Assembly: GCA_018524725.1 (NCBI GenBank)
Contig: JAEUWP010000261.1
Location: 1-23,078, forward strand
DNA length: 23,078 bases
Source of the DNA: Podaxis mareebaensis
Taxonomy: Eukaryota > Basidiomycota > Agaricomycetes > Agaricales > Agaricaceae
Direction of reading: 5' to 3'
Below the pieces are notes generated by a model. That model was not told where the DNA came from, made no database searches, and worked only from the letters and a program-made list of their open reading frames with translations. Below, one piece after another: positions 178 to 13,820 of this stretch. How positions within the stretch are numbered: the first letter of the stretch is position 1; each line of letters starts with the position of its first letter. Position numbers and translations under genes: made by a program.

Positions 178-1341
178 AAGGGGAGAGGCAGTTCACATAG
201 AGGCACCACAGAAGGTGCAGATGTGGTTCTCGAACAGGAGAGTGTGATTGATGAGGAGTTTGGCCCTAGTGGCTGATTGTGAGTCCCAGAGATCAAAGAA
301 AAGGATGGTGGAGTCAGAATGAGGGGAGACTCGGTGGAAGCATGGTTTGCCAACAAGATGTTGAGTCATCTCGTGGTATGGGGAGGATTTGATGACTTCC
401 TTGAAGTCGTTGGAGGTGTGTGGAGTGCCATTGGGGCAGAAATATGGGAGATTCCTCAATTTGATGAATGATTTGGACATGGGTAGTGAAGGGATGATGG
501 CATCCCTAATTTCTTGGGTGGCAAATGCTGACTGGTTGGAATCAGTGATGCCTTTTTTGACGATGAGGAGTTCCTCATCTGTCACAACCTGGTTGGTGGA
601 GAGCCAGAGGGTCCTGTCATTGGACTTTGCTGACTCGACTTTAAGCAAGAAACCCTTTTGGTAAAGGGCATTGTTGCAGTTCCTCACTACGAGGTTGAGA
701 GAAGTGATGAGGATAGGTTTAAAGACATTGTTGTTCCCTACAACAATGTTCTTGTGTGATGGGCCTTGAGTGGCCTTGGGAGAGTTGGAGGGGCAGGGTG
801 AAGGTTTGGATGGTGTTGAGGAGGGAGATTTAATGTCTCCTGATGAGTGGAAGAAGTTAATGATGTCAACTGGTGACATCTGGGGGAATTGGTTCTGAAG
901 GGTAGCATACTTCTGCAATTCTTCAGATTTAAGGGGGGAGTTGGAGGCAGCTCTGGCATAGGACAACCTCTGAGTAGATGGGGATGGGACATTCGACCTG
1001 GGATGGGTCTTGTAGTTGATGGGGGGAGGAGGGGAGGGAGGGAGAGAGGATTTAGGGGCTTGGGGGGGGAATGAGGGAGTGATGATAGGCTTACACTGAC
1101 CTTGGGTGGCTACCAGTTTGTGAGGTGCCCATCAGTGGGTGACAGAGGTCCACAAGCTGGATTTATTGTCACCTTTTCCAGAGGTTTGGGCCTCAGGAAT
1201 GGCTTCAAGATTAGTGGTGGTGGTGGGAGGGGGAGGGAGCATTTCAGTATCAATATTTGAACCAGAAGACTCACCTGGCTTATTCATGTCTTGAGGGGGG
1301 AGGCAGGAGAGGGCAATTGCTCACACTGTGTCTTTATTGAA

Positions 1342-1425
1342 TTGTGAGTCTGAGCCCTGGAGATACCCAGAGGCATCAGGAGGAATAGTGGAGGAGCTCT
1401 GGAGATTCCCAGTAGCATCCTTAGG
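1342..1425 (-). repeat. Imperfect direct repeat inside the LINE ORF1-like frame
   Basis: Two copies of a unit of about 21 bp, reading CTGGAGAT-CCCAG-GCATC on the plus strand with a few differences, lie about 45 bp apart. In the coding frame they give two similar short blocks, DATGNLQ and DASGYLQ, so this is a small duplicated linker in the low-complexity N-terminal half of the protein. Confidence 0.5.
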
Positions 1426-2427
1426 GGGAGGGGAAGACACAGCTGGTGCCTTTTCAGCCTGATGAGCATTGCAATGACCTGTTGACATGGGCATGGGAGT
1501 GGGAGAGAGAGTCTGTGAGGGAGGAAACTGCATAGATACAAAGTCATACAGCTTTAGTTGATGTCTGTTGTAGGGGACAGACTTATTGTGCAATTGATCA
1601 GAATGCATGATAGTTTGTAAAATGTGAATGATATGAGGAATGCCCTCAAAAGAGGAAAGATCCCCAGTTTTGGCCCAGTTTCCTAAATAAGAAGATACAA
1701 AGCCTAATAAGGAAGTGAGGCACTTAAGCCCCATGATGTCACTAGTATTGGTGATGTTGATCATGGAGATGCCATCACCAAGGGTTTCATGGATGGATGA
1801 CCAATCTGTTCTGTGGGTCGGCTGTGCTTCAGCATGAGGCTGTGCAGCAGCAGGGGGAGAAAGGGGAGTGAAAGAGGGGATGGTTGGGAGAGGGTCAGAA
1901 GGATGGGATTCATCCCAAGCAGCACCTGGAGTGGGTGGAACAAAGCCATGTGAAGTGGCGATAGCTTGTGAGGGAGATAGCACCCTATGAGATGAAGGTG
2001 CAATTTCTGGTGATATATCAATTTCATCACGAGCCAGTGCGATGGAAGGGTGAATGGATCTGGGAGTAGAGAGTCCTTGAGAACCCTCATTGGAATCTTC
2101 CTCTTTGTTTATCTCAGCAGAGGAGATGGAGGTGGCATCATCATCTTCTCTGAACTTCATGCTTTTCTCCAAGTGATTGGAGAGGGATTGGTCTGTGGAA
2201 TAGGAGTGTTTAACTCCAATAGATGGCGAAGGAGAGGGTGGCTTTTGAATGAAGTCCTCCAAGACTTGGAAATCATTGAAGAGGGGGACAGAGGCCTCTC
2301 TTGGTAAAGTTGGGTTGGGCACTAGGCTGGCGCTTGAATGCTGACAATGGGTGATGTTTGAACGGATGCTGTTGGTAGTCTTCTTCATACCTCCAAGGAA
2401 GCCGCTAGTCTCCTTAGAGCTTGACAT

Positions 2428-2571
2428 AGCAATTTAGGATGAGTAACTTTATTCCTTGTACTACAAATAACTGTGCCACTGAAACGATAGTGGTAGTTAC
2501 TGAGAAAGGAAGTGCTGTGACAATTGTTCATCTGGGTTATCTGGGCTGTACTGGATGAACTCATGATGTAG
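2428..2571 (-). other. Stop-rich spacer between two minus-strand reading frames
   Basis: In the frame shared by the flanking reading frames this 144 bp contains four stops (two TAA close to 2427, one TAG and another TAA) in under 50 codons, far denser than in the flanking coding stretches. It therefore looks like non-coding spacer rather than decayed coding sequence. No LTR-like TG...CA pair and no promoter motif was found in it. Confidence 0.45.
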
Positions 2572-3934
2572 TCAGATTTCAGGCTCTGGGAGGAGATTTC
2601 CTGGTGGGCATACCAGGATTGGTTGGCCAAAGGAGAGTCCCTCAAATAGGGACTCTGATGGGATAATACCACTCAAGGTCTGTTTTGTTGACTTCAAGGG
2701 AATTGTTTGAGGAGGTTCTGTCATGGAGACATCAATGTCCCTGGACAGTACCTCCTTGATGTATGGTAAGGTGACATCAGCCAGCAGTGGTGGTGGCCAA
2801 TGTGAAGATGAGGCAGTCAAAGGAGGCAAAGGTTGGCAACATTGGCAAGGTAATGGTTTTACCTTGTTACCAGTGTGAGGTGTTGGTGTCATGGGGGTTT
2901 GTGGGGTGCTAGGCACCCCCTGTTGAGACAACATTGTCAATTGAGATGTTGTGTGCTGTTTTGCAGGCCATTCTTTGTCTTGGTCCAACTTCTTGTTTAG
3001 TTGTCATTGCAGGTTCAAGACCTGCCTCTGTAGTAGACTATTTCATCCTTCAAGCATGATGAAATGATCTTGCAAGCTGTGGAGCTTTGTTAAAAGCTCC
3101 TCAATGATTGCATTGCAGCCAGCGTGTCTTGAGCTGGTGCTTAGTTTGGATATCAGGTCTATGGGTAGACCTGCTTTCGTTGAGTTGATTCATCAGCTCT
3201 TGGACATACTGGTTGTCCTCAAGCTCTACATCTACAGCTCTTTGCTTTCCTTGGGCTTTTGAGGAAGGGGTGGGCTGTGCTGACTTGGTTGATTTCTGTT
3301 TGCCCTTGTCCTTAGAGGATGAGGGTGCTGGGGAGTTCTTTGTTCTACTCCTTCCTTGAGTTGAGGTGACTGAGGATGATCAAGATGGAGGAATGTTATT
3401 CCTCCCTATGTTGGTTGCCAATGATGATGTTGGGGCCAGCATTGTTGGTCATGGTGTTGTGGCTGGCTGATCTTGGGTCAGTGGTGACAGTTGCAGTTGC
3501 AGTGGAAGTGGCAGCATTTGCTGAATTGGTGCAGTGGTGGGTTGTTGATATAGTGGATATAGCACCAATGGAGGAGGGTAGGGTCCATACAGTTGAGTGA
3601 AACTGTACATGTGTGGAGGAGGCAGGTAGAATGCAGGGTATGGGTAGCCCTGCATGAAAGGTTGGAGTAGTGGAGGCATCACATGTAAATGTGATGGATC
3701 CATTTGATTTAGGCCTTGTGGTATTGAGCCCACAAGGTTAGATAGTAGTGCTTGCTGGACAGTGAGTTGCTGCCCATTGTAGTGAGGAACTGGAATTGGG
3801 TTGGGCGATACATCCATTGCCCTCCCCCCTTTGAGGCCCATTGGAGGGCCTCCAGGATGTGCAGGGTAATTTGCATCACCCTGCACCAATGCATATTGTT
3901 GGTTTTGGTTGTGTTGGGGTTGTTGTGCATCCAT
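2572..3934 (-). pseudogene. Pro/Gln-rich protein with coiled-coil-like tail, unrecognised (broken)
   Basis: I do not recognise this protein. The likely start is the ATG at 3934, which sits in a strong context (CACCACCACCATGG). The first 150 or so residues are rich in Pro, Gln and Tyr (for example LPPPHMYSF and YGPYPPPLVLYPLYQQP). A Ser/Lys/Thr-rich stretch follows, then an acidic, helical segment around VELEDNQYVQELMNQL. Between about 3180 and 3120 the reading shifts frame and continues as a leucine-rich, coiled-coil-like segment (AIIEELLTKLHSLQDHF). In-frame TGA codons lie at 3449-3451, 3380-3382, 3043-3045 and 3004-3006; the frame closes at 2572-2574. It follows the chromodomain of the Ty3 gag-pol at 4085 with about 150 bp between them. 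The hairpins typical of that element continue through it, which suggests, without proving, that both belong to one unit. It could instead be the first frame of the adjacent LINE. Confidence 0.5.
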
Positions 3935-4087
3935 GGTGGTGGTGTTGAAGTGAGGACAAATTAAAGTTATTTGTCCCATCTTTGTGTTCCCAAACATTGG
4001 GAATGCGATCCTCAGGGTTGAGTGTCCAAATTTGGATGCTATCAATTTTTCCATGGATAGTCATTGACTGATCTGTAGTAGTTGTCA

Positions 4088-4270
4088 AATTGAGTTAGCA
4101 CCTTTCAGCTCTAGATACCAATCTAGAGCTGCTAGGTCTTTGCAATGGCAATATGGCTCCCATGTTGTATTGCCTAGACTCCAGCATACCTGGAACTCCA
4201 CCTTGTCATCATTTGTGAAACAATGACTGATGATTTTGTTGATGAACCATTCATGTTTGTCATCTATGCC
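4088..4270 (-). pseudogene. Integrase C-terminal chromodomain
   Basis: After the integrase C-terminal beta-barrel part (LNLPKGKAWKLCPKFIGPF near 4490-4430) the frame encodes EWFINKIISHCF, then VEFQVCWSLGNTTWEPYCH and LAALDWYLEL. The EWFI start, the aromatic W in VCWSLG and the TTWEP block match the three aromatic-cage regions of chromodomains found in fungal chromoviruses. These target integration to chromatin carrying histone marks. A TGA near 4291-4293 separates it from the upstream part and the frame ends at 4085-4087. Confidence 0.85.
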
Positions 4271-4629
4271 AAAGTCGTAGGGTTCTGGTTTATTTCAGCT
4301 AGGGAATAGTGCATTGTCCAATGCATTATAGGGCTGAAGCAATGATATGTGGAATGTCGGGTGTATTTGACATTCCTGCAGGGCTGGTGGTAGCTCAAGA
4401 CAGTAGTTAGATGTCTCAGGTTTGGCTTCCAAGACCTTAAAGGGTCCAATGAACTTTGGGCAGAGCTTCCAAGCTTTGCCTTTTGGTAGGTTTAGATTTT
4501 TGGTGGAGAGGAACACCAGGTCTCCAGCTTTAATGTCAGGTTCAGGTCCTCTTCTTTTGTTTGCCTGGTGGGTTTGGAAAACCTGTGCTTCTATGATGGC
4601 ATCATGAGCAGATGCCAAGTTCATCAGGG

Positions 4630-5400
4630 TGGCTTCAGCAAATAGTCTAACACCCTTAAGGGGTGTTAGGTCACCCCATATCTCTCAGATCATACTGGGC
4701 ATGTATCCACCATTCAGTTTGAACAGTGCATACCCAGTAGTGGCAGATATACTTGAGTTTATAGCAAACTCAGTCATGGGTACCTTGTCTACCCAGTTTT
4801 TTTGGTTATGGCTGACTGTTGCTCAGAATATCTGTCCAATATTCTGGTTCATGTATTCAGTCTGCCTGTTCATTTGTGGGTGGAATGATGTGGACATTAG
4901 GAGCTTAGCTCCTAAAATTTTGTGGAGTTCTACCCACCACACAGAGGTGAACTTTGAATCTTGATCACTTATGATTGAACTAGGGAGGCCATGTAGCCTC
5001 ATGATCTCTCATAGGTAGATCCAAGATAACTCAGATGCTTTCATCTGCATATGTACTGAAATCAGGTGTACCATACTTGTCATTCTACAAATGATGACCC
5101 AGAGGTAGTCAAAGCTTTTGGATTCAGGGAATGGACTGACAAAGTCCATTTCAATGGAATCCCAAGGTTTGGTTGGGACTGGTAGTGAGTGCAATGTTCT
5201 GGAAGGTTTCATATTCGAGACCTTCAAGCATTGACATATTTTGCATGTTCTGCAGAACATGCATGTGTCTTTGGCTATTTTTGGCCACCAGTACCACCTT
5301 TGGAGGTACTCTGCTGTCCATTGGTTGCTGAAGTAACCAATGATCTTGTGAGCTTTATTCAAAAGCTCTGTAATTAGCAGTCAGTTATTGGGAATACATA
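4630..5400 (-). pseudogene. Integrase: zinc-binding and DDE catalytic parts
   Basis: The zinc-binding part reads KAHKIIGYFSNQW and later CRTCKIC. The second His of the H-x4-H pair is Tyr here (TAC), so zinc binding should be lost, while the C-x2-C pair remains. The catalytic core keeps all three acidic residues: Asp in WDSIEMDFVSPFP, Asp in SIISDQDSKFTS and Glu in HPQMNRQTEYMNQ. Stops lie at 5009-5011, near 4827 and near 4686. Integrase inserts the cDNA into host chromatin. The His-to-Tyr codon begins with the last base of an inverted-repeat arm (5319-5342), so that substitution may be tied to formation of the hairpin. Confidence 0.85.
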
Positions 5401-5939
5401 CCACCTCCTGTCCTTGGAGGGTGGTTCTTTGAATAATACCATCTTCATTGATAGTAAAACCACTGTATTTCTCGGGTGCTTCAAGCACCACTGAAAACAT
5501 GAGGTCAGATGTGTATCCTGACATGATTGTTTTCATCACATTGATTGGGAGCTCCATTGGAGCTTCAGTGGAGATGTTACCTGTTAATGCATCTCCCAGT
5601 GTTAGAGACTCAATGAGTTGTTCTTGTGGCTCCTATTGAGCAACCTGTCTCTGGGCTGCTTCTTGAAGCTCACAAGTTTCAATCTCTCATTCTTCCTGCC
5701 ATTCACACAGGCAGGTGCTTCAATGCAATGGTCACTCGACCATTGCATTGACTCTGTTGAGAAGATGCTCAATCTCCTCGGCTTGTTGTAGGGGTAGGTC
5801 CTTGCAGTGAGGATCGATTCTATGATCGACTTGGACATATTCTCCAGGGGAGTGTTCCTCTCCTGGAGTATCACTTTCAAAGTAGTGGGACAAGCAGTCT
5901 GCTACTTTATTTCATTCTCCTTTGACATATGTAATGTCA

Positions 5940-6500
5940 AAGTTAAAACATGATAGATAGTCCATCCACCATCATTGTCAGCTAGACAGTTGCACTTGAG
6001 TTTTGAAAAACTCCAGCACCTTGTGATCTGTGATAACATGGATCCTGTAGCCAATGAGTTTATCCTCCCACTTCATTAGTGCTTCTAAAATTGCTAGTGT
6101 CTCAAGTTCATGCATGGCATAGTTCTGCTGTGCTGGGGTGAACTTCTTGGACATGAACCCTGCTGGGTGGCAGTCTGCCCAGGTGGGTCCTTGTCCATAC
6201 ATGGCTCCAACACCTGTCTTAGAGGTGTCGCAGATGATCCATATAGGTTCCCCAGTTCTGGGGTCTATCAGTTTGACAATAGGGGTCTTCTTGCAGATCC
6301 TTTTCACCATGTCAAAGCAACACTGGTGAAGGGGTCTCCAATGGAACAGGGTTCCATTCTGGGTGATTGTGAGCAGTGGCCTGGTGTATGCAGATACATC
6401 TGGCAAAAAGTTTGCCAGGTAGTTGACAAGTCCAACAAATTGTTGGACATCAGTATAGTTTCTGGGAGTGTGCCACTCCCAGATGCAGGTCAATTTGTCT
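5940..6500 (-). pseudogene. RT connection and RNase H domain
   Basis: The connection segment shows DVQQFVGLVNYLANFLPDV. The RNase H fold follows with PIWIICDTSKTGVGA (first Asp), AMHELETLAILEAL (Glu), IHVITDHKVLEFF (Asp) and a last block KVADCLSH containing the final Asp. The four acidic residues expected for RNase H are thus all visible, although two stops (near 5978 and 5971) lie between the third and fourth blocks. The domain normally removes the RNA strand from the RNA-DNA hybrid. Confidence 0.83.
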
Positions 6501-6559
6501 TCATCTGGGTGTATCCCTTGGTTATCTATGATATGACCAAGGCAGTCAATGCAATCTGC

Positions 6560-7250
6560 ATACAGATTGCATTTGGATTGTTTGACATATAACTTGTGTT
6601 TGTGCAGTCACTCAAACACAAGTTATAGATGATCTTCATGTTCATCTATTGAGTCAGAGAATATGAAGATGTTGTCAAGGTATATGTATACACATATACC
6701 TATGACATCATGAAATATAGCAGTCATTAACCACTGAAAGGTTGCAGGGGCATTGCAATCCCCTTGCTGCATTATGTTGCTGACATACATGCCAGTAATT
6801 GTGGCAAATCCTGTTTTGTCTATATCTTCCAGACATATTTGGACTTGTTCATAGGCATCAGTGAGATCAATTTTGGATTGATATCGCACTCGAGTGACAT
6901 CTTCTCAAATGACATCTTGGTCTGGCAAGGGTGTGGCGTCCTTGACAGTGTTTTCATTTCGTTATCATGCATCTATGACAGTTCGTGGTTGACCATCTTT
7001 CTTTGGGATGCACAGTAACAGTGCTGCTTGGGAGACATGTTATGGCTCCCACCATTTTGTGTTCATATAACAGTTGAGTTTCTGGTGAAACTCCCTGCAT
7101 AGAGATTGAGGGCATCAAGGAGTGAAGTAATTGTACTTCTTATTCTCATTGATGAGGTTTATTTCATGATTTACTTCATGAAATGGTGGTAATTCATTGG
7201 GAGGACCTTGCATGATGTCCTCGAATTCACTGAACCACTGCTGGCACAGT
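6560..7250 (-). pseudogene. Reverse transcriptase domain, YxDD changed to YLDN
   Basis: Recognisable RT motifs follow in order: LLLCIPKKDGQPRTVIDA near 7025-6970, SKIDLTDAYEQV (motif A with the first catalytic Asp) near 6875, MQQGDCNAPATFQ (motif B) near 6770, and YIYLDNIFIFSD (motif C) at about 6680-6646. The second Asp of motif C is AAC (6671-6673), Asn instead of Asp, a change that removes polymerase activity. It again fits a CpG-context change (GAC GAC to GAC AAC). The primer-grip and connection part continues as KLYVKQSKCNLYADCIDCLGH. Stops lie near 7115, 7050, 6960 and 6623. Two of the strongest hairpins of the element (6588-6627 and 6678-6701) lie inside this domain. Confidence 0.85.
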
Positions 7251-7885
7251 GTCAGTATGTCCTTCTTGGAGTACCAGCCTTGTTGCTCAGGGTGGCAATT
7301 CCTCTTCTCAGCATTGATCCAAGTGTTTTGTATTTGTGTTTCTGAATCATCTTCCACTGGAAGATGAGTGATGATCATACTGCAGAGTTGATCTTGTACC
7401 ATTTTATCAGGGTAATGTACCCTGGTAAACTCCTGGGTTTCGACTACATTGTCAAGGTTGGGTTGTGTGAACCCAGTCAAAGTTGGTAGTTTGTCCCCAG
7501 GATGACACATTTCCCATATGCCACAGACCATGGCATTCTATTCTGCAGGCATTCAGGGGTCATAATACCACTCAAACATTGGGTTCTGAGCTGGTCTGTC
7601 TATCAAACAAGACTTGTATCTCATTTTTTGTGGTCCATGAGGGGCATTTTGTCCCTCTTGATTTGGTGAAGGAGGTGCTTTCTCCTTCAGTTTGTTCTTC
7701 TTGGATGAGACCTTGTGTTCTTCTTGACCCATGTCCCCCCTTCAAGAGTTCATGGAACTCTTGACCTTTTCTAGGAGGTGATGGCTATTGTGGGGTAATG
7801 TTTCCCCTTGGGAGCTTTGTTTGTCATCTCAAACTTCTTCTATGGATGTTTGATGGACACTGTCCCATTGAACACCTTCCACAAG

Positions 7886-8330
7886 TCAACTTGACTTGTT
7901 TTTATCAGTTGCATGGTGGTGGCACAGGTGAGTATCTGATTCACTGGCAAAGTTCACTACTTCTATGGTCTTGCTTCCAATTCTGACTTCATTCTTGATG
8001 AAGTTGAGGATGATGTTGTTCATATGCATGAATGGCATACTGATTATCATGTCATAGTGATCAAAGTTCACTACATCTACATACATATGAGTGCATATGT
8101 TTCCAATGGCAACATTTACTGTCACTCCATACTTGACAGTGGATCAACTGCCCACTGTCCCCAGCTGCAGTGTGTGAGGGTCTAGTAGTTTGTTGACCCT
8201 GATTCCAGCCACTTGTGCAAATGTGGGGGTGATGCTGGTAGTCATACTACTGGAGTCCCACAGTGTCCAAGCATCAATGCCATTGACACTGATGAGAGTG
8301 GTGAGACATTGTTTCTTGCTGAGGGATGCT
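7886..8330 (-). pseudogene. Aspartic protease domain, active-site Gly replaced
   Basis: The domain begins around LISVNGIDAWTLWDSSS. The catalytic Asp is the GAC at 8255-8257. The usual D-S/T-G triad reads D-S-S here, because the third codon is AGT where a Gly codon is expected, a G-to-A change in a CpG context (TCC GGT to TCC AGT). Downstream the flap and second half are seen as VAIGNICTHMYVDVV and YDMIISMPFMHMNNI, matching the region that in relatives ends with a conserved bulky residue, Pro and Phe. A TGA at 8144-8146 splits the domain. The protease normally cuts Gag-Pol inside the particle; this copy should be inactive. Confidence 0.75.
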
Positions 8331-8725
8331 TGGGGCCAAAGGATCTTATCCTTCTCTTTATGGAGGGTGATGTGATGTACCCTCACTTCATGGTCTGGTT
8401 TCTCACTGGGCTCGACAGTGAGAGCGTTGATGACATTGAAGTCATTGCAGTCTTTGTTGTTGACATCTTTTGCATCACCAATCATGGCAGTGAAATCATA
8501 TTCATCATCAACATCAGATCTGTAGTCTGATTCAATGACTTTGACTTGTACTAGTTCATCTCTGTTTGACGAACTAGACTCTAGTTCTTCTTGGACCTCA
8601 GTGTTGTCATCTGAGGTTGAGTCCTGTTCAATTTCTTCAACTTCTTGTTGAAGAACTTCTTCATCATTCACTGGAACAACTGTGTGTGTGGCTCATACAT
8701 AGCTGCATCATTTCCCCTTCTCTGG

Positions 8726-8767
8726 GCATTCTTGTGCCCAGTGACCATGTTTTCCACATTCATAACA
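8726..8767 (-). other. Gag zinc knuckle (CCHC) of the chromovirus
   Basis: The minus strand reads C-Y-E-C-G-K-H-G-H-W-A-Q-E-C, a perfect C-x2-C-x4-H-x4-C nucleocapsid knuckle, immediately followed by a TGA. It binds the element's RNA. A 10-bp perfect inverted repeat (8763-8792, loop 10) overlaps its first codons. Confidence 0.85.
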
Positions 8768-9034
8768 AGGCCCTTTCTCTGTGGCCTTGTTACCTTGGAT
8801 CAGCTTCACAGGTGCTCTGTTTTGTACCTGAGGTTTAATTTGAGCCTTGGGTTTCTGTTGTCAAGGTGGGGGTCTCAACAGTCACCTTGGTGTAAAGGCA
8901 TTCAAGGATCGCTTTAGCTCATGAGCAGGGATGTGATCCCATCCTACAGATATGTGACAAGGGACCCATGTGGTCCTCGTTCTTGGTTCCACTGTGGCAG
9001 GTTTCTTTGAGAAGCCTGCTGATGGTTTGTGTGA

Positions 9035-9556
9035 TCAAGAAGGCTTTAGTACCTTCTTGAAAAAGGCACTGCTTTGCATCCAATTCTCATAATTGGCTGT
9101 GTGTGCCACAAAGTCCTCAAGTTGGTTCATCTCAGGAGACAACCCTCTGTTGAACATGAGGAAGTGTCTCATGGTTTGTGGGAGACCTTCCAAGAAGGTC
9201 TCAATAAGAGAATAATCATCAGGATGGATAGCCATATCTTGTGAGTATCCCAAGATGGCATCATAATAATGTTGAATCCCTTCTTTAGGACTATACTTGA
9301 CCCCTTTGAGGCTCTCATGAGCCTCATGCATTGATGTCAGTCTGATAAATCTGTCATAGAGCACTGTGATGATGCTCTTGAATGTCCAATCATATTTGCT
9401 ATGATCTATACTAAGTACATGGTGAATGAACATCTCCTTTGCCTCTCCAACAAGGTAATATTGGAGAGTTAGGATCCATAGTCGATCTGTAGCAGGGCTC
9501 TGTCCCCCTAGCCCCTTCATGGCAAAGTTGGCACAGAGACTTGTCACAAATGACAA
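9035..9556 (-). pseudogene. gag: Gag capsid region of the chromovirus
   Basis: The segment encodes the helical capsid region typical of Ty3 gag. It shows the block WILTLQYYLVGEAKEMF, then FKSIITVLYDRFIRL, then a segment ending QHYYDAILGYSQDM, and the closing motif IETFLEGLPQTMRHFL. It would assemble the virus-like particle in the cytoplasm. A TGA at 9035-9037 separates it from the zinc-knuckle part, and two stops (near 9557-9566) precede it. The family assignment is by pattern of conserved hydrophobic and aromatic positions. Confidence 0.75.
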
Positions 9557-11617
9557 TAAGTCTCAGAATCAGTGACTTCCACTGTATGGCTCCAAGCTCT
9601 TTTCTGTGGGAAGCTTGTTCAACAAAGGTTTATAACCTTTAGGGTATTCAATTGGTTGTGCAAGATATTGGTCAATCATTCAGTATAAATGATCATACAT
9701 GAGGTTATTGTAACTCTGGACAGATTGTATGATCCCCAGAGTTACTGACTTGTCATGTGCCTCTCTGACTAGGGAGTATTGACGGGTCCCTCAGTTTGGT
9801 ATGGGGAGTTGTGAGGTGATGTACACCTCCTGCTCCTCCTTTGTATCATCTTCTTCCTCTCCTTCTTCCTCTTGTATGGGAGGAAGATTTTGGAGGGGAT
9901 GTAGATTGTATAGCAGGGGCAGATTTTGCCCCTGCAAGGATGGTTGTTGGGGTGGGGAGGCCATCCTGACTGTTTTACAGGTATTAACTGTCTGAGGTGT
10001 CTTGAGGGGGCCTCTAAAGAACACACAAGTAGCTGCCTTTTGCTCCTTGTGTTCCAACATGGTGGCCTCAATAGGTATATGTCTGTTGAACCTAATATAT
10101 TGGTCATCTATCAGAGATGACCTGCAAGTATGGATGTCTTCATTTCGCATCCATTGTAGAGTGACCTGGTCACTCCATTTATTAGCACAAGGGGTTCATT
10201 TAGCCATAGGCAATATGAATGGGGTGCTCAAGGCTTGGAATGAACCAGCATTCATAGGAACACTAGTGGTGGAAGGTAGTTTGGCTTTAACATTTGATGT
10301 TGAAGCCACTGGGGACTTTCCACTGGCTATGGGTTTGGCCAATGGTGATCTCATGATTTCAGTATTCATTGCAGGGTAGTTACTACCCTGCACTGCTGTT
10401 CTTGGTGATGGCACACCTACCAGTCCTTTCCCTTTGGGAGAAGGAATAGGAGGCAGTTGAGGTGACCAGTGTGGGTGGAGGTTAGTGATCTGACCCCAGG
10501 GGTCAGGTTGCATTAACAGGGAAGGTGGCAGTCAGGTTTGTGATGCCCCAGTGGTTGAGGCATGGCATTGCAATTTGTTTGCAAATGTATTATTCCCTGG
10601 GATCATCTCACCATCTGTGACAGTGGACCCATTGATGGTGAAGTGTGTGGCCCTTAGGCCATACCCTTGTACATGTTGTTGTTGTGCACTGCAGCACTCA
10701 TTGTAAGCTTGATCTGTTTCCCCTGGTTGCCTGGGCACATGTAGATGCACCACAGCTTGGGCAGTATTTGATAACATGGTCAATGAGGGAGATGGATGGT
10801 GTGGGTGTAATTGAGGTGTTGCCAGTGGTCTGTCATTATTGCATTGACAGTGGTGCTCATGCACTGGGTGTTGTTCAGCCCTCTCAATCACTTTGTTGAT
10901 TTTGGCATTAAGGGGATCATAGGTGATCCCATCATTAGTGGAGTCAAGGATGTGCTCGAGGTACTGTTGAGTAGGTTGTATTTTATATACACTGTGCATG
11001 GGTGTAAGGTCAGTTTGTTTGACCTTCATGGCCTGGGCCTTTTGGTAGGCCATGCAAAGCTTTGTCAAAGCTTTGATATAAGTAGTGCAGAATCAGTTGG
11101 AGCTGACTTCTATTGGCAAGTCAGTTTCCCAGTATGACTCTGCTATGATCATTTCAGCATATACCAACATTTGGTGTTGGCATTGGTGTTTAATAATGCC
11201 ATAGTCTGTGAATATGGAATTGACTTGGTCTTCTAAGGAGACTATATTGTTGAGAGCAGGGGGCAAGAATTCCGGTGTCGATGGTTCAGAGTGTGAACCA
11301 TCAGATCAGTGTGTTGTGCTTGACATGGGGTGCAATGCTAGGGGATGGCTCAGCTTGAATTCAGGGAATAGGGGAAGCTCCTCTGGAGCTTCCTCACCAT
11401 TGGTGGATGATTCATGAGCTGATGCATCTGCTGGGGGTGTGGTGATGGGGAAGGGGATTGTTGGTTCATAATGTGGCAAGGGGATAGATGGGGAAGGGGG
11501 TGTGGATGGGGTGTGTAGGCCTTGTACATTCACATTGTGCATCATCACATTGAGATGTCATTGCATGTCTTCAGACATGTTGTAGTGTCCAGGGGGGTGG
11601 TTGTGCTGTGAGGCCAT
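9557..11617 (-). pseudogene. N-terminal gag extension of the chromovirus
   Basis: This is the part of the gag frame upstream of the capsid fold. From 11617 it gives HLNVMMHNVNVQGL, a Pro/Ser-rich stretch ending near 11306, a helical block at 11068-10800 (TKLCMAYQKAQAMKVKQTDL), Gln/His-rich sequence near 10750-10650, a Pro/Ser/Lys linker at 10513-10196 and an acidic Glu-rich run near 9870. Stops in frame lie near 11560, 11306, 10532, 10196 and 9791. I recognise no enzyme in it; it probably forms the flexible N-terminal gag region. The frame is fixed by continuity with the capsid, and composition alone gives no function. Confidence 0.6.
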
Positions 11618-11723
11618 TTGAGTAAGTGGTGACAAGAGCTTTTTACTTTAGGCTTTTAAGTGCAATAGTTGCATTTAATGGATTCACTTAGTACATGCCC
11701 AAGTGCAGGGTATTGTAAAAAAG

Positions 11724-11991
11724 TGTAAGCCTCTGGGGGCTTACTTAGAGCTCAGACCTTAAGTTCACACTGATGTACAATAAGCCCAATGTATTGGGAT
11801 GTACACAGTGTAGGTATAAGGTCAGCTGTCCTAATGACAGCTGACAATGAGATTATAAGGGATGTATTTTGATGGATTGAGTAATCCATCAAGGTCAAAG
11901 ACAAACAAGAAAATAATTGATTAATTAACAACAAACAACTCAAGATAATCTGGAACAATGATAACATGACTGTAAGGGCCCAGCCCTTACA
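11724..11991 (-). repeat. Probable 5' LTR of the Ty3 chromovirus
   Basis: On the minus strand the segment starts TGTAAGGGC and ends GGCTTACA, giving TG...CA termini with a 6-bp terminal inverted repeat (TGTAAG/CTTACA) and a length of 268 bp. It lies about 107 bp upstream of the gag ATG. A TATAA-like stretch (CCCTTATAATCTC on the minus strand, about 11850-11862) could be its promoter. Perfect hairpins fall at 11969-11993, 11869-11892 and 11821-11845, with shorter ones at about 11786-11799 and 11727-11744. No second copy is in the window, so the boundaries are inferred from the termini only. I could not identify a primer-binding site. Confidence 0.6.
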
Positions 11992-11999
11992 GTGAAGAG

Positions 12000-12119: not shown

Positions 12120-12684
12120 TCCCCAACAATTTTTGTTGTAGTTCATAGTGAAAAAACATGGTTCTCACTTGTCAATCTAAACACAGCCACCTTCACTCCA
12201 GACCAAAAGGAATGATCATGGCCCCCTTTCTCAACTAGGGAACTGACAGATGCTCTACTTCCATGTGCTAATTCCTCCACTCTGGGCCCAGACCATCTTT
12301 CATGAGCCCATATCAAACACCTCATGTCAGACAATGTCATTAAATTGAACTTCACTCTTTTCACTTCTGAATGCATTAGACTTCATACTTGGCCAGAATA
12401 TTTTAAAACATCTACCTCAGTTATCATCCCAAAACTGAATAAACTTCATTACTCCACACTGAAAATATTCCACCCCATTATCCTCCTCAACACTCTCACC
12501 AAACTGATCAAGAAAATGATTTCTAATCACCTCCAATTTGAAGTGACTCAGTTTGATCTTGTTCACCCCCTACAATTCAGCAGCATTATCCATTGCTCCA
12601 CAGAGGATGCAGGTGTCTATGTCACACACTTAGTTTGTTCTGGATGGAAAAGGAACCTTAAAATGAGCATCCTTGCTTTTGACA
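12120..12684 (+). pseudogene. LINE ORF2 reverse transcriptase fragment, cut after motif A
   Basis: The plus frame through 12324 reads, after two in-frame TGA codons (12213-12215 and 12303-12305), a fungal LINE reverse transcriptase. It shows the N-terminal block FSTRELTDALLPCANSS, GPDHLS preceding AHIKHLM, then TWPEYFKTSTSVIIPKLNK, the block ILLNTLTKLIKKMISNHLQF, and finally LKMSILAFDI, the start of motif A with its Asp. The homology stops there at about 12684; motif B and the catalytic YxDD are missing. The TGA before AHIKH sits where Trp or Arg is expected. It is a remnant on the opposite strand to the chromovirus and immediately right of its LTR. Confidence 0.8.
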
Positions 12685-12969
12685 TTATGGAGATCAGAGC
12701 TTGGCTGGCATTGCAAGACACCATCCTTCCTCCTCCTCTCATACAAAATCACTGCCAATTCACCACCTCATTGCCCCAATGTCCCCAGAACATGCAAATG
12801 AAGTCCTCACCTCTCTGCACACCATCTCCTTCCATCTTTGGAAGGTGGTGTCTGACCCCTTCAATGACAGGATCCACTCTCCAAATGTGCTATGCCATTG
12901 AGGGGCATCCAACATCCAATTTTCATTTTCACTTCATGCTCCATATTCAAATTTTGTTGTTGTTGAACT
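12685..12969 (+). other. Unrecognised segment between LINE fragment and LTR
   Basis: From about 12701 the second plus frame is open for 66 codons (MSPEHANEVLTSLHTISFHL, then VVSDPF) and beyond one stop continues through SNIQFSFSLHAPY. It is not LINE-like and I do not recognise it. It may be a fragment of another gene or element brought in by a deletion joined to the LINE. Confidence 0.3.
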
Positions 12970-13244
12970 TGTAAAAAGTGGGTTTAGAATGGAATGTCAT
13001 CATACATGGAAGATTCATACCTTTTGATTTGATTCTTCATTTTCTTGACTGTTTTCTAGCATTTTCTCTAATGAACAAAAACTTTGTTAGTTGTAGTATA
13101 AAAACCATGTCATAGGTACAATGAATACAAGTTGTTTTTACCCCCATATTTTTCCTCTGCTCTCTTCTTGCTCTCAGCTCTCTACCTCACTTCATCCCAT
13201 AACCACTCTCAATGCCAGACAGACACTGGCACTCTTCCTATTAC
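12970..13244 (+). repeat. Probable 5' LTR of a second LTR retrotransposon
   Basis: The segment begins TGTAAAAAG and ends CTATTACA, TG...CA ends with a 5-bp inverted repeat (TGTAA/TTACA), 275 bp long. A TATA box (GTATAAAAACC, 13097-13107) lies in the middle and is followed by a pyrimidine-rich stretch, as expected for a promoter in U3/R. The gag-like ATG lies 210 bp downstream. No second copy is available for comparison. Confidence 0.5.
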
Positions 13245-13454: not shown

Positions 13455-13820
13455 ATGTCTCAGGCTGGAGATGAATTGGAAGCCTTATCCCAGTGTCACT
13501 ATAACTATCACCCTCATTATCATTACTTCAGCATGTCAGGAGATGACACAAATGTCAGCACTCACACTCCTGCTCACCCTCAGTTCATTCCTGCAAATTG
13601 GTGCACTCCAGATGGTCATATGGTCACCCCACAACCACTCATTCCTCTATCTCCACCCCAGCCTATTGTTATCCAAGCTCCTCCCAACCCTCATAGTATG
13701 CCTGCCCCAGGTGATTGAAGTGCTCTGAAATTCAATGGTCATCCACTTTCCCTTCAATGCTTCTTTGATGAAATTGAGACCTTGGGCATGTCTTGTCAGC
13801 TAGATGATCAAGACATGATT
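13455..13820 (+). pseudogene. N-terminal gag of a second LTR retrotransposon, interrupted
   Basis: From ATG 13455 the frame reads MSQAGDELEALSQ, a His/Tyr-rich and then Pro-rich region, and PAPGD before a TGA at 13716-13718 (an Arg codon expected). It continues as SALKFNGHPLSLQCFFDEIE and LGMSCQLDDQDMI. The block with KFNG, FFDEIE and an LDD is the start of the capsid part in gag proteins of basidiomycete Ty3-type elements. Homology stops at 13820, exactly where a TGTTAGG segment begins, so a later insertion probably split it. I did not find the continuation of this gag further right. Confidence 0.65.

Follow-up and report, generated by a model that had tools for sequence, protein, structure and literature searches.

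Why coding DNA should be packed with perfect stems is a puzzle whose closest precedent, among those that we found, is the coding palindromes of nematomorph mitochondria. The available portions of two reports on Nematomorpha describe many perfect inverted repeats (up to 284 bp) in mitochondrial coding genes, at positions that are mostly species-specific and subject to gains and losses, and propose template switching or repeat conversion as their origin (PMC6649704, PMC10380579); the authors' argument, as far as the available text of the first report goes, is that among long repeats there is no excess of imperfect ones (PMC6649704). Here we analyze a 23,078-nt stretch of the genome of Podaxis mareebaensis (assembly GCA_018524725.1, contig JAEUWP010000261.1, positions 1 to 23,078; hereafter "the window"), in which a nuclear Ty3-type retrotransposon, so classified by its protein domains, carries a genuine excess of short perfect hairpins.

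Some RNA viruses possess genome-scale ordered RNA structure, i.e., a genome-wide structure with folding more stable than that of shuffled sequences, and Tf1/sushi-type chromoviruses employ self-primed reverse transcription, fold-back priming being part of Tf1 biology. MicroRNA (miRNA)-like secondary structures, linked to small RNAs, have reportedly been observed in genes and transposable elements of maize. For hairpin-studded long terminal repeat (LTR) retrotransposons, no description appeared among the papers listed by searches of the open literature; most subscription papers lay outside the reach of these searches, so that absence from print is unproven.

Results

A large and specific excess of perfect hairpins

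A hairpin was defined as a maximal perfect inverted repeat with arms of at least 8 bp and a loop of at most 16 nt. An exhaustive scan of the window yielded 64 of these, 58 of them in positions 2634-11993 (~1 per 160 bases, or ~18 times the chance number over 9.4 kb), including 16 with arms of at least 10 bp. One hundred dinucleotide shuffles of the same segment, which could have produced a similar count, gave a mean of only 3.13 (sd 1.74, max 7), and of 0.16 (max 2) for arms of at least 10 bp. The original prediction had listed 42 hairpins by eye, an excess that the scan bears out at a higher count; its tally of 16 hairpins with arms of 10-15 bp, the positions and arms of the four hairpins that it quoted and its remark that arm sequences differ from hairpin to hairpin all agreed with our results.

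The enrichment rises with arm length, from 296 observed vs. 156 in shuffles (arms of at least 5 bp) through 96 vs. 10.8 (at least 7 bp) to 30 vs. 0.8 (at least 9 bp), and it is far larger for inverted repeats (58 vs. a mean of 2.8 in 20 shuffles, max 6) than for direct (8 vs. 3.4, max 9), mirror (7 vs. 2.6, max 7) or complement (7 vs. 1.9, max 4) repeats, which show at most a mild rise. For scale, a survey of 118,019 genomes (arms of at least 10 bp, spacer of at most 8), in its available text, gives an average of 1.91 bp per kb for Eukaryota (PMC13155455); at these settings the element holds 13 hairpins, i.e., 315 bp in 9.36 kb or ~34 bp per kb. The left flank (2,633 bp) is slightly raised, with 3 hairpins vs. 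a shuffle mean of 0.61 (max 3), and the right flank (11,085 bp) has 3 vs. 2.47 (max 8); the region of 12.1-13.8 kb, earlier described as free of hairpins, is nearly so, with a single one starting at 13787. No hairpin with arms of at least 8 bp occurs in 3 kb of either of two unrelated elements, one Ty3 (L041) and one Copia (L042) (0.3 expected).

The host element and its two families

By its Pfam matches, which follow the Ty3 order of reverse transcriptase (RT), RNase H and integrase on the minus strand, the hairpin-bearing segment is a Ty3-type element with the following make-up:

2518..11993, minus strand: hairpin-studded Ty3-type element, window copy (BLAST against 13 further copies and end alignments)
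9035..9562, minus strand: gag piece (Retrotrans_gag, E 0.0021, a weak match under the curated cut-off)
6623..6904, minus strand: reverse transcriptase piece (RVT_1, E 5.4e-14)
5978..6607, minus strand: RNase H piece (RT_RNaseH, E 6.9e-23)
5009..5380, minus strand: integrase zinc-binding piece (Integrase_H2C2, E 3.2e-10)
4295..4684, minus strand: Tf2-1-like SH3 domain (SH3_Tf2-1, E 5.7e-17)

The left boundary is placed at ~2518, where the end alignments show the window copy parting from other copies whose homology runs on, and position 11993 is the start of homology, exactly or within a few bases, at TGTAAGGG in 10 aligned copies. The right edge had been taken for an LTR end, and as an element edge it holds; an LTR pair was not demonstrated, as no direct repeat of at least 60 bases occurs anywhere in the window and the ends of 10 sequences gave no match (at most 13 bases at low stringency), the 3' ends of the copies lying outside the stretches compared. 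The label of chromovirus, also proposed originally, is only partly supported: there are matches to RT, RNase H, the integrase zinc finger and SH3_Tf2-1, but in this damaged copy the piece at 4085-4291, after the integrase, has no Pfam chromodomain match at E 0.1. By eye, 4085-4294 (minus strand) has a chromodomain-like look with no Pfam chromodomain.

The main family, which includes the window copy, has at least 28 matches (the window included) in the 36.95-Mb genome (G000) that span 1,300 or more of the 1,601 query bases at 84-100% identity, a lower bound since 40 of 53 candidates were scored. A second, sister family in the same genome reaches 72-74% identity over the best half of the query, and the two families are ~68% identical. 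At the RNase H protein level, both families fall at 67-100% identity and the other Ty3 matches listed at 39% or below (150 of 338 candidates scored). Related proteins named from Hypsizygus marmoreus (73% amino acid identity) and Moniliophthora roreri (58%) are among the 120 of 303 matches listed, few of which carry an organism name; these relatives point to an agaric mushroom as the probable host. No relatives were confirmed in viral contigs, and none appeared in phage records. One copy, L043 (G000:C237:20000-21399), considered as a third family, was placed in the sister family by its 88-93% identity; because it shows no CpG loss and its RT-RNase H frame is open over 422 aa, the sister family may have transposed in recent times. 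Groups of copies among L021-L031 (gag and 3' parts) change membership along the element, which suggests recombination between related copies.

Beside the element, two long proline/serine-rich frames adjoin its 3' side (193-1131 and 1321-2433, minus strand), and an open frame at 12306-12974 (plus strand) resembles, by eye, a fragment of a long interspersed nuclear element (LINE) reverse transcriptase; none of the three has a Pfam match.

Hairpins predate the dispersal of copies and differ between families

An alignment of 4.6-kb pieces from 20 copies, which have few gaps and a pairwise identity of 85-94%, contains 543 hairpins at 66 centres. Because 59 of these centres recur in at least two dispersed copies (and 2 of them in all 20), the hairpins are, as read from the alignment, older than the dispersal of the copies. 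The copies differ mainly by transitions resembling repeat-induced point mutation (RIP), and such transitions break hairpins. Thus, 1260 of 1378 two-allele columns are transitions (C/T or A/G), 607 of 1265 transition sites stand in CpG context, and the CpG observed/expected ratio is 0.04-0.69 in 11 main-family copies, a RIP-like signature of C-to-T change on both strands with CpG depletion; mismatches inside the hairpins of other copies are mostly A.C or G.T. This pattern indicates that the main family spread carrying its hairpins and that RIP-like mutation came afterwards.

The sister copy L043, with a CpG observed/expected ratio of 1.02, has 5 hairpins with arms of at least 8 bp in 1.4 kb (0.22 in shuffles), which rules out RIP-like C-to-T mutation as the maker of hairpins; across copies, hairpin number is not significantly related to GC content (Spearman -0.40, p 0.23). 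Protein coding as the cause is likewise ruled out by synonymous shuffles (300) of the 1,266-bp open stretch of this copy, where 11 hairpins are observed vs. 0.99 (max 5) for arms of at least 7 bp, and 5 vs. 0.3 (max 2) for arms of at least 8 bp. Insertion of whole hairpin units is unlikely, given the few gaps among copies or, where aligned, between families. There is no sign of longer ancestral arms; except in the final, poorly aligned part, arms mostly measure 8-15 bp. Ongoing covariation within the main family is weak (1234 Watson-Crick pairs vs. 1171 expected if independent), and within-family clusters of transversions, considered as copying events caught in the act, looked like subfamily blocks.

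Hairpins abound in both families: 24-47 in 4.7-10 kb for seven sister-family stretches, and 31-57 for 13 main-family stretches of 10 kb, the minimum being in partial copies. Of 30 centres in an alignment of 1.4 kb across RT and RNase H, 24 occur in one family only and 6 in both (e.g., at alignment columns 1314.5 and 1389). Across three aligned regions, hairpin sites of one family retain 56-61% Watson-Crick pairs in the other (vs. 23-27% for shifted partners), with pairing near background at some sites. From this we infer hairpin gain and loss on the time scale of the family split.

Individual hairpins of the window copy, located by the scan (and by alignments where copies are mentioned), are as follows:

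11969..11993, minus strand: outermost hairpin, at the 5' edge of the element, arm ACTGTAAGGGC, loop 3 (scan and end alignments)
11869..11892, minus strand: hairpin in the 5' non-coding part, arm TTGATGGATT, loop 4
11821..11845, minus strand: hairpin in the 5' non-coding part, arm GTCAGCTGTC, loop 5, slightly changed in the 10 copies shown
10370..10392, minus strand: hairpin, arm TGCAGGGTAGT, loop 1
6588..6627, minus strand: longest hairpin, arm TATAACTTGTGTTTG, loop 10; centre present (arm of at least 7 bp) in 13 of 13 aligned main-family copies and 0 of 6 sister copies
5720..5751, minus strand: hairpin, arm TCAATGCAATGGTC, loop 4, centre in 17 of 20 copies
5242..5263, minus strand: perfect palindrome, arm TGCATGTTCTG, no loop, centre in 13 of 20 copies
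4106..4131, minus strand: hairpin, arm CAGCTCTAGAT, loop 4, centre in 20 of 20 copies
2634..2656, minus strand: final hairpin on the 3' side of the window copy, arm AGAGTCCCT, loop 5

RNA folding and pairing chemistry

Predicted folding is 18-32% more stable than that of shuffles on both strands in 5 copies of the two families, with a mean z of -2.0 to -2.9 per 150 nt (between -0.4 and +0.4 in the flank and two controls), and is slightly stronger on the sense than on the antisense strand in 5 of 5 copies. This extra stability follows from the hairpins and is, alone, no proof of selection. Beyond stems of 7 bp, the first fixed non-pair is G.T in 5 of 93 cases (background 10%) and A.C in 23 of 93 (23%), and one-sided changes between the families yield 32 GU and 44 AC. 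Among stems with one mismatch, G.U accounts for 4 of 53 at span 9 and 2 of 35 at span 10 (in shuffles, 2.2 of 26.2 and 0.8 of 10.7, respectively). The arms are exact Watson-Crick complements with little sign of a G.U preference, which argues against selection for RNA folding, since such selection should favor G.U throughout.

Stems with no fixed mismatch and those with exactly one are similarly in excess over expectation (+32.7 vs. +26.8 at span 9, +19.8 vs. +24.3 at span 10, +11.4 vs. +16.2 at span 11, +6.9 vs. +4.6 at span 12), though stems can break in several places.

Polarity of change between arms

Fixed differences between the families were counted per arm in 76 low-gap hairpins (of 101), with overlapping hairpins removed. 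The 5' (sense) arm is the more diverged in 40 hairpins and the 3' arm in 19 (p 0.009; 0.008-0.013 with a sliding null), as would be predicted by fold-back of minus-strand cDNA, where the 3' arm is template and the 5' arm copy. A stronger figure (39 vs. 14, p 0.0008) still included overlapping hairpins and is superseded. The main family taken separately gives 25 vs. 9 (p 0.009); the total differences are 205 (5') vs. 166 (3'), a gap reached in 1.3% of 1000 sliding controls. With arms of at least 7 bp the bias is 66 vs. 33 (n = 131, p 0.003), and for 7-bp arms alone 18 vs. 8 (p 0.08); a 5' bias is absent from 5-bp and 6-bp stems (18 vs. 28 and 19 vs. 21, respectively). A three-way test restricted to the main family, on partly the same data, gives 8 vs. 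4 of 22 hairpins. The 5' arms of at least 10 bp in the main family are 43% A+C (14 TG-rich vs. 4 AC-rich, p 0.025) and the sense strand is 57% A+C, a skew to be expected of copies taken from ordinary 3' arms.

Discussion

The excess of hairpins, their presence before dispersal, their largely separate sets in the two families, the exact complementarity of their arms and the lack of any excess in two unrelated elements are established by this analysis. The reading that we favor, at a confidence just short of even, is that the hairpins are a by-product of recurrent templated conversion of arms during replication of the element. A growing strand would fold back at a near-palindrome, copy its own fresh sequence for roughly 8-15 bases and then return, rewriting one arm as an exact reverse complement of its partner. 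The polarity makes minus-strand cDNA synthesis our best guess for the step involved: reverse transcriptase would start by copying the RNA's 3' arm, and the nascent cDNA would then serve as template for the 5' arm. Repeated creation, together with loss by point mutation, would leave related families with similar hairpin density at mostly different places, and CpG-linked C-to-T mutation would break hairpins after integration. That the arms arose by copying seems the likelier part of this scheme; that the element's own RT does the copying, on the minus strand, is put forward with less assurance. A broader version, in which self-templating by fold-back is a habit of this clade's RT during minus-strand synthesis and the whole genome of the element drifts as a result, by arm conversion, toward a string of perfect hairpins, is tentative and rather doubtful.

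Several observations weigh against templated conversion. The 5'-arm bias is suggestive only, being approximately 2:1 with several tests run; it is not significant in the sister family alone (15 vs. 10, p 0.42), and the composition of all arms of at least 8 bp is also non-significant (main family p 0.56, sister p 0.21; sister arms of at least 10 bp p 0.22). Within the family no bias emerges, the subfamily contrast giving 11 vs. 11 (17 vs. 12 with gappier sites added); differences in arms are, moreover, no more clustered than outside, and multi-base copying predicts clusters. An inner-to-outer gradient present for arms of at least 8 bp is absent at 7 bp, imperfect stems are in excess along with perfect ones, and not one individual copying event was caught in the compared copies. 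Loops of 0-2 nt occur at 18 of 101 centres of the two families, vs. ~7 by a hand estimate that assumes a three-base minimum for true loops; fold-back under such a minimum leaves them unexplained, and no reading accounts for them well. Finally, G.U makes up 4 of 21 one-mismatch stems at span 11 (0.2 of 4.8 in shuffles, a small count), and the hairpins shared by the families contain eight two-sided compensatory pairs, which also fit selection.

These last two points are among the strengths of the main rival, selection for a genome-scale ordered structure of the element RNA, in which numerous local stems would serve to protect, package or regulate the genomic RNA. Its further support comes from the added folding stability with its slight sense-strand lean, and from the hairpins in the open RT frame of L043, which exceed what the protein needs. 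We consider it a serious candidate but, on balance, unlikely: G.U is unfavored in the other mismatch counts (spans 9 and 10 included), most centres of the 1.4-kb stretch are not common to the sister family, and a 5'/3' polarity would be unexpected. Selection for the hairpins as DNA (as cruciforms, single-stranded cDNA structure or protein-binding palindromes) would suit exact Watson-Crick arms and the many very short loops; given that arm sequences vary between hairpins (no motif search was run), that positions shift between families and that ~60 sites per element would probably be a heavy load for a selected function, it appears quite improbable.

Exact complementarity of arms also fits quasi-palindrome conversion of integrated copies by the replication or repair machinery of the host, a process that the available text of the respective sources describes for yeast genes (PMC8604942) and proposes for RNA genes (PMC8794818). 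Such conversion is improbable as the explanation here, though less so than DNA-level selection, since the recurrence of centres in scattered copies makes the hairpins older than insertion, and there are none in L041 or L042 and 6 in 13.7 kb of flank (including 3 in the left-hand 2.6 kb, 0.6 expected). An artefact of composition, coding, low complexity or RIP-like mutation making palindromes could be entertained because the main-family copies are heavily transition-altered and direct, mirror and complement repeats are mildly raised, but it is hardly credible in the face of the dinucleotide and synonymous shuffles, the direct and mirror controls, the hairpins of L043, a copy with no CpG loss, and the non-significant relation to GC content. 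The original prediction had left the choice between a perfecting process and selection for structure; our tests lean moderately toward the process, by virtue of the Watson-Crick arms and the excess of change in the 5' arm.

With two diverged families, copies by the dozen and related proteins in at least two named mushrooms, the element offers a natural series for measuring the gain, loss and direction of hairpins. If RT does write the arms, this would be a case of mutation building RNA structure unaided by selection, and would warn against taking dense RNA structure as proof of function; if self-templating is clade-wide, it would be a directional, enzyme-made mutation pressure shaping a coding genome.

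In comparison with known systems, the element resembles nematomorph mitochondria in having perfect repeats within open coding sequence (as in L043), at places that mostly change between relatives through gains and losses, and differs in being a nuclear LTR-type retrotransposon, rather than mitochondrial DNA, with arms mostly of 8-15 bp; unlike the long nematomorph repeats, its one-mismatch stems are also in excess, so the argument made for those repeats is weaker here. It shares perfect stems with short-range template switching and quasipalindrome correction, as characterized in the available parts of the sources (PMC8794818, PMC8604942), and, on the reading favored here, would also share an arm rewritten as the reverse complement and homogenization of arms in coding DNA; its density far above chance over 9.4 kb and a polarity that would fit reverse transcription set it apart from template switching in cellular genes as described there (PMC8794818, PMC8604942). 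With genome-scale ordered RNA structure the element has in common folding more stable than shuffles, and it departs from that class in its perfect Watson-Crick hairpins, its folding on both strands and the scant sign of a G.U preference. With the structures reported from maize it shares local RNA structure in a transposable element, the small-RNA link belonging to maize; and with Tf1/sushi-type chromoviruses, a Ty3-type pol bearing a Tf2-1-like SH3 domain, self-priming being a feature of Tf1.

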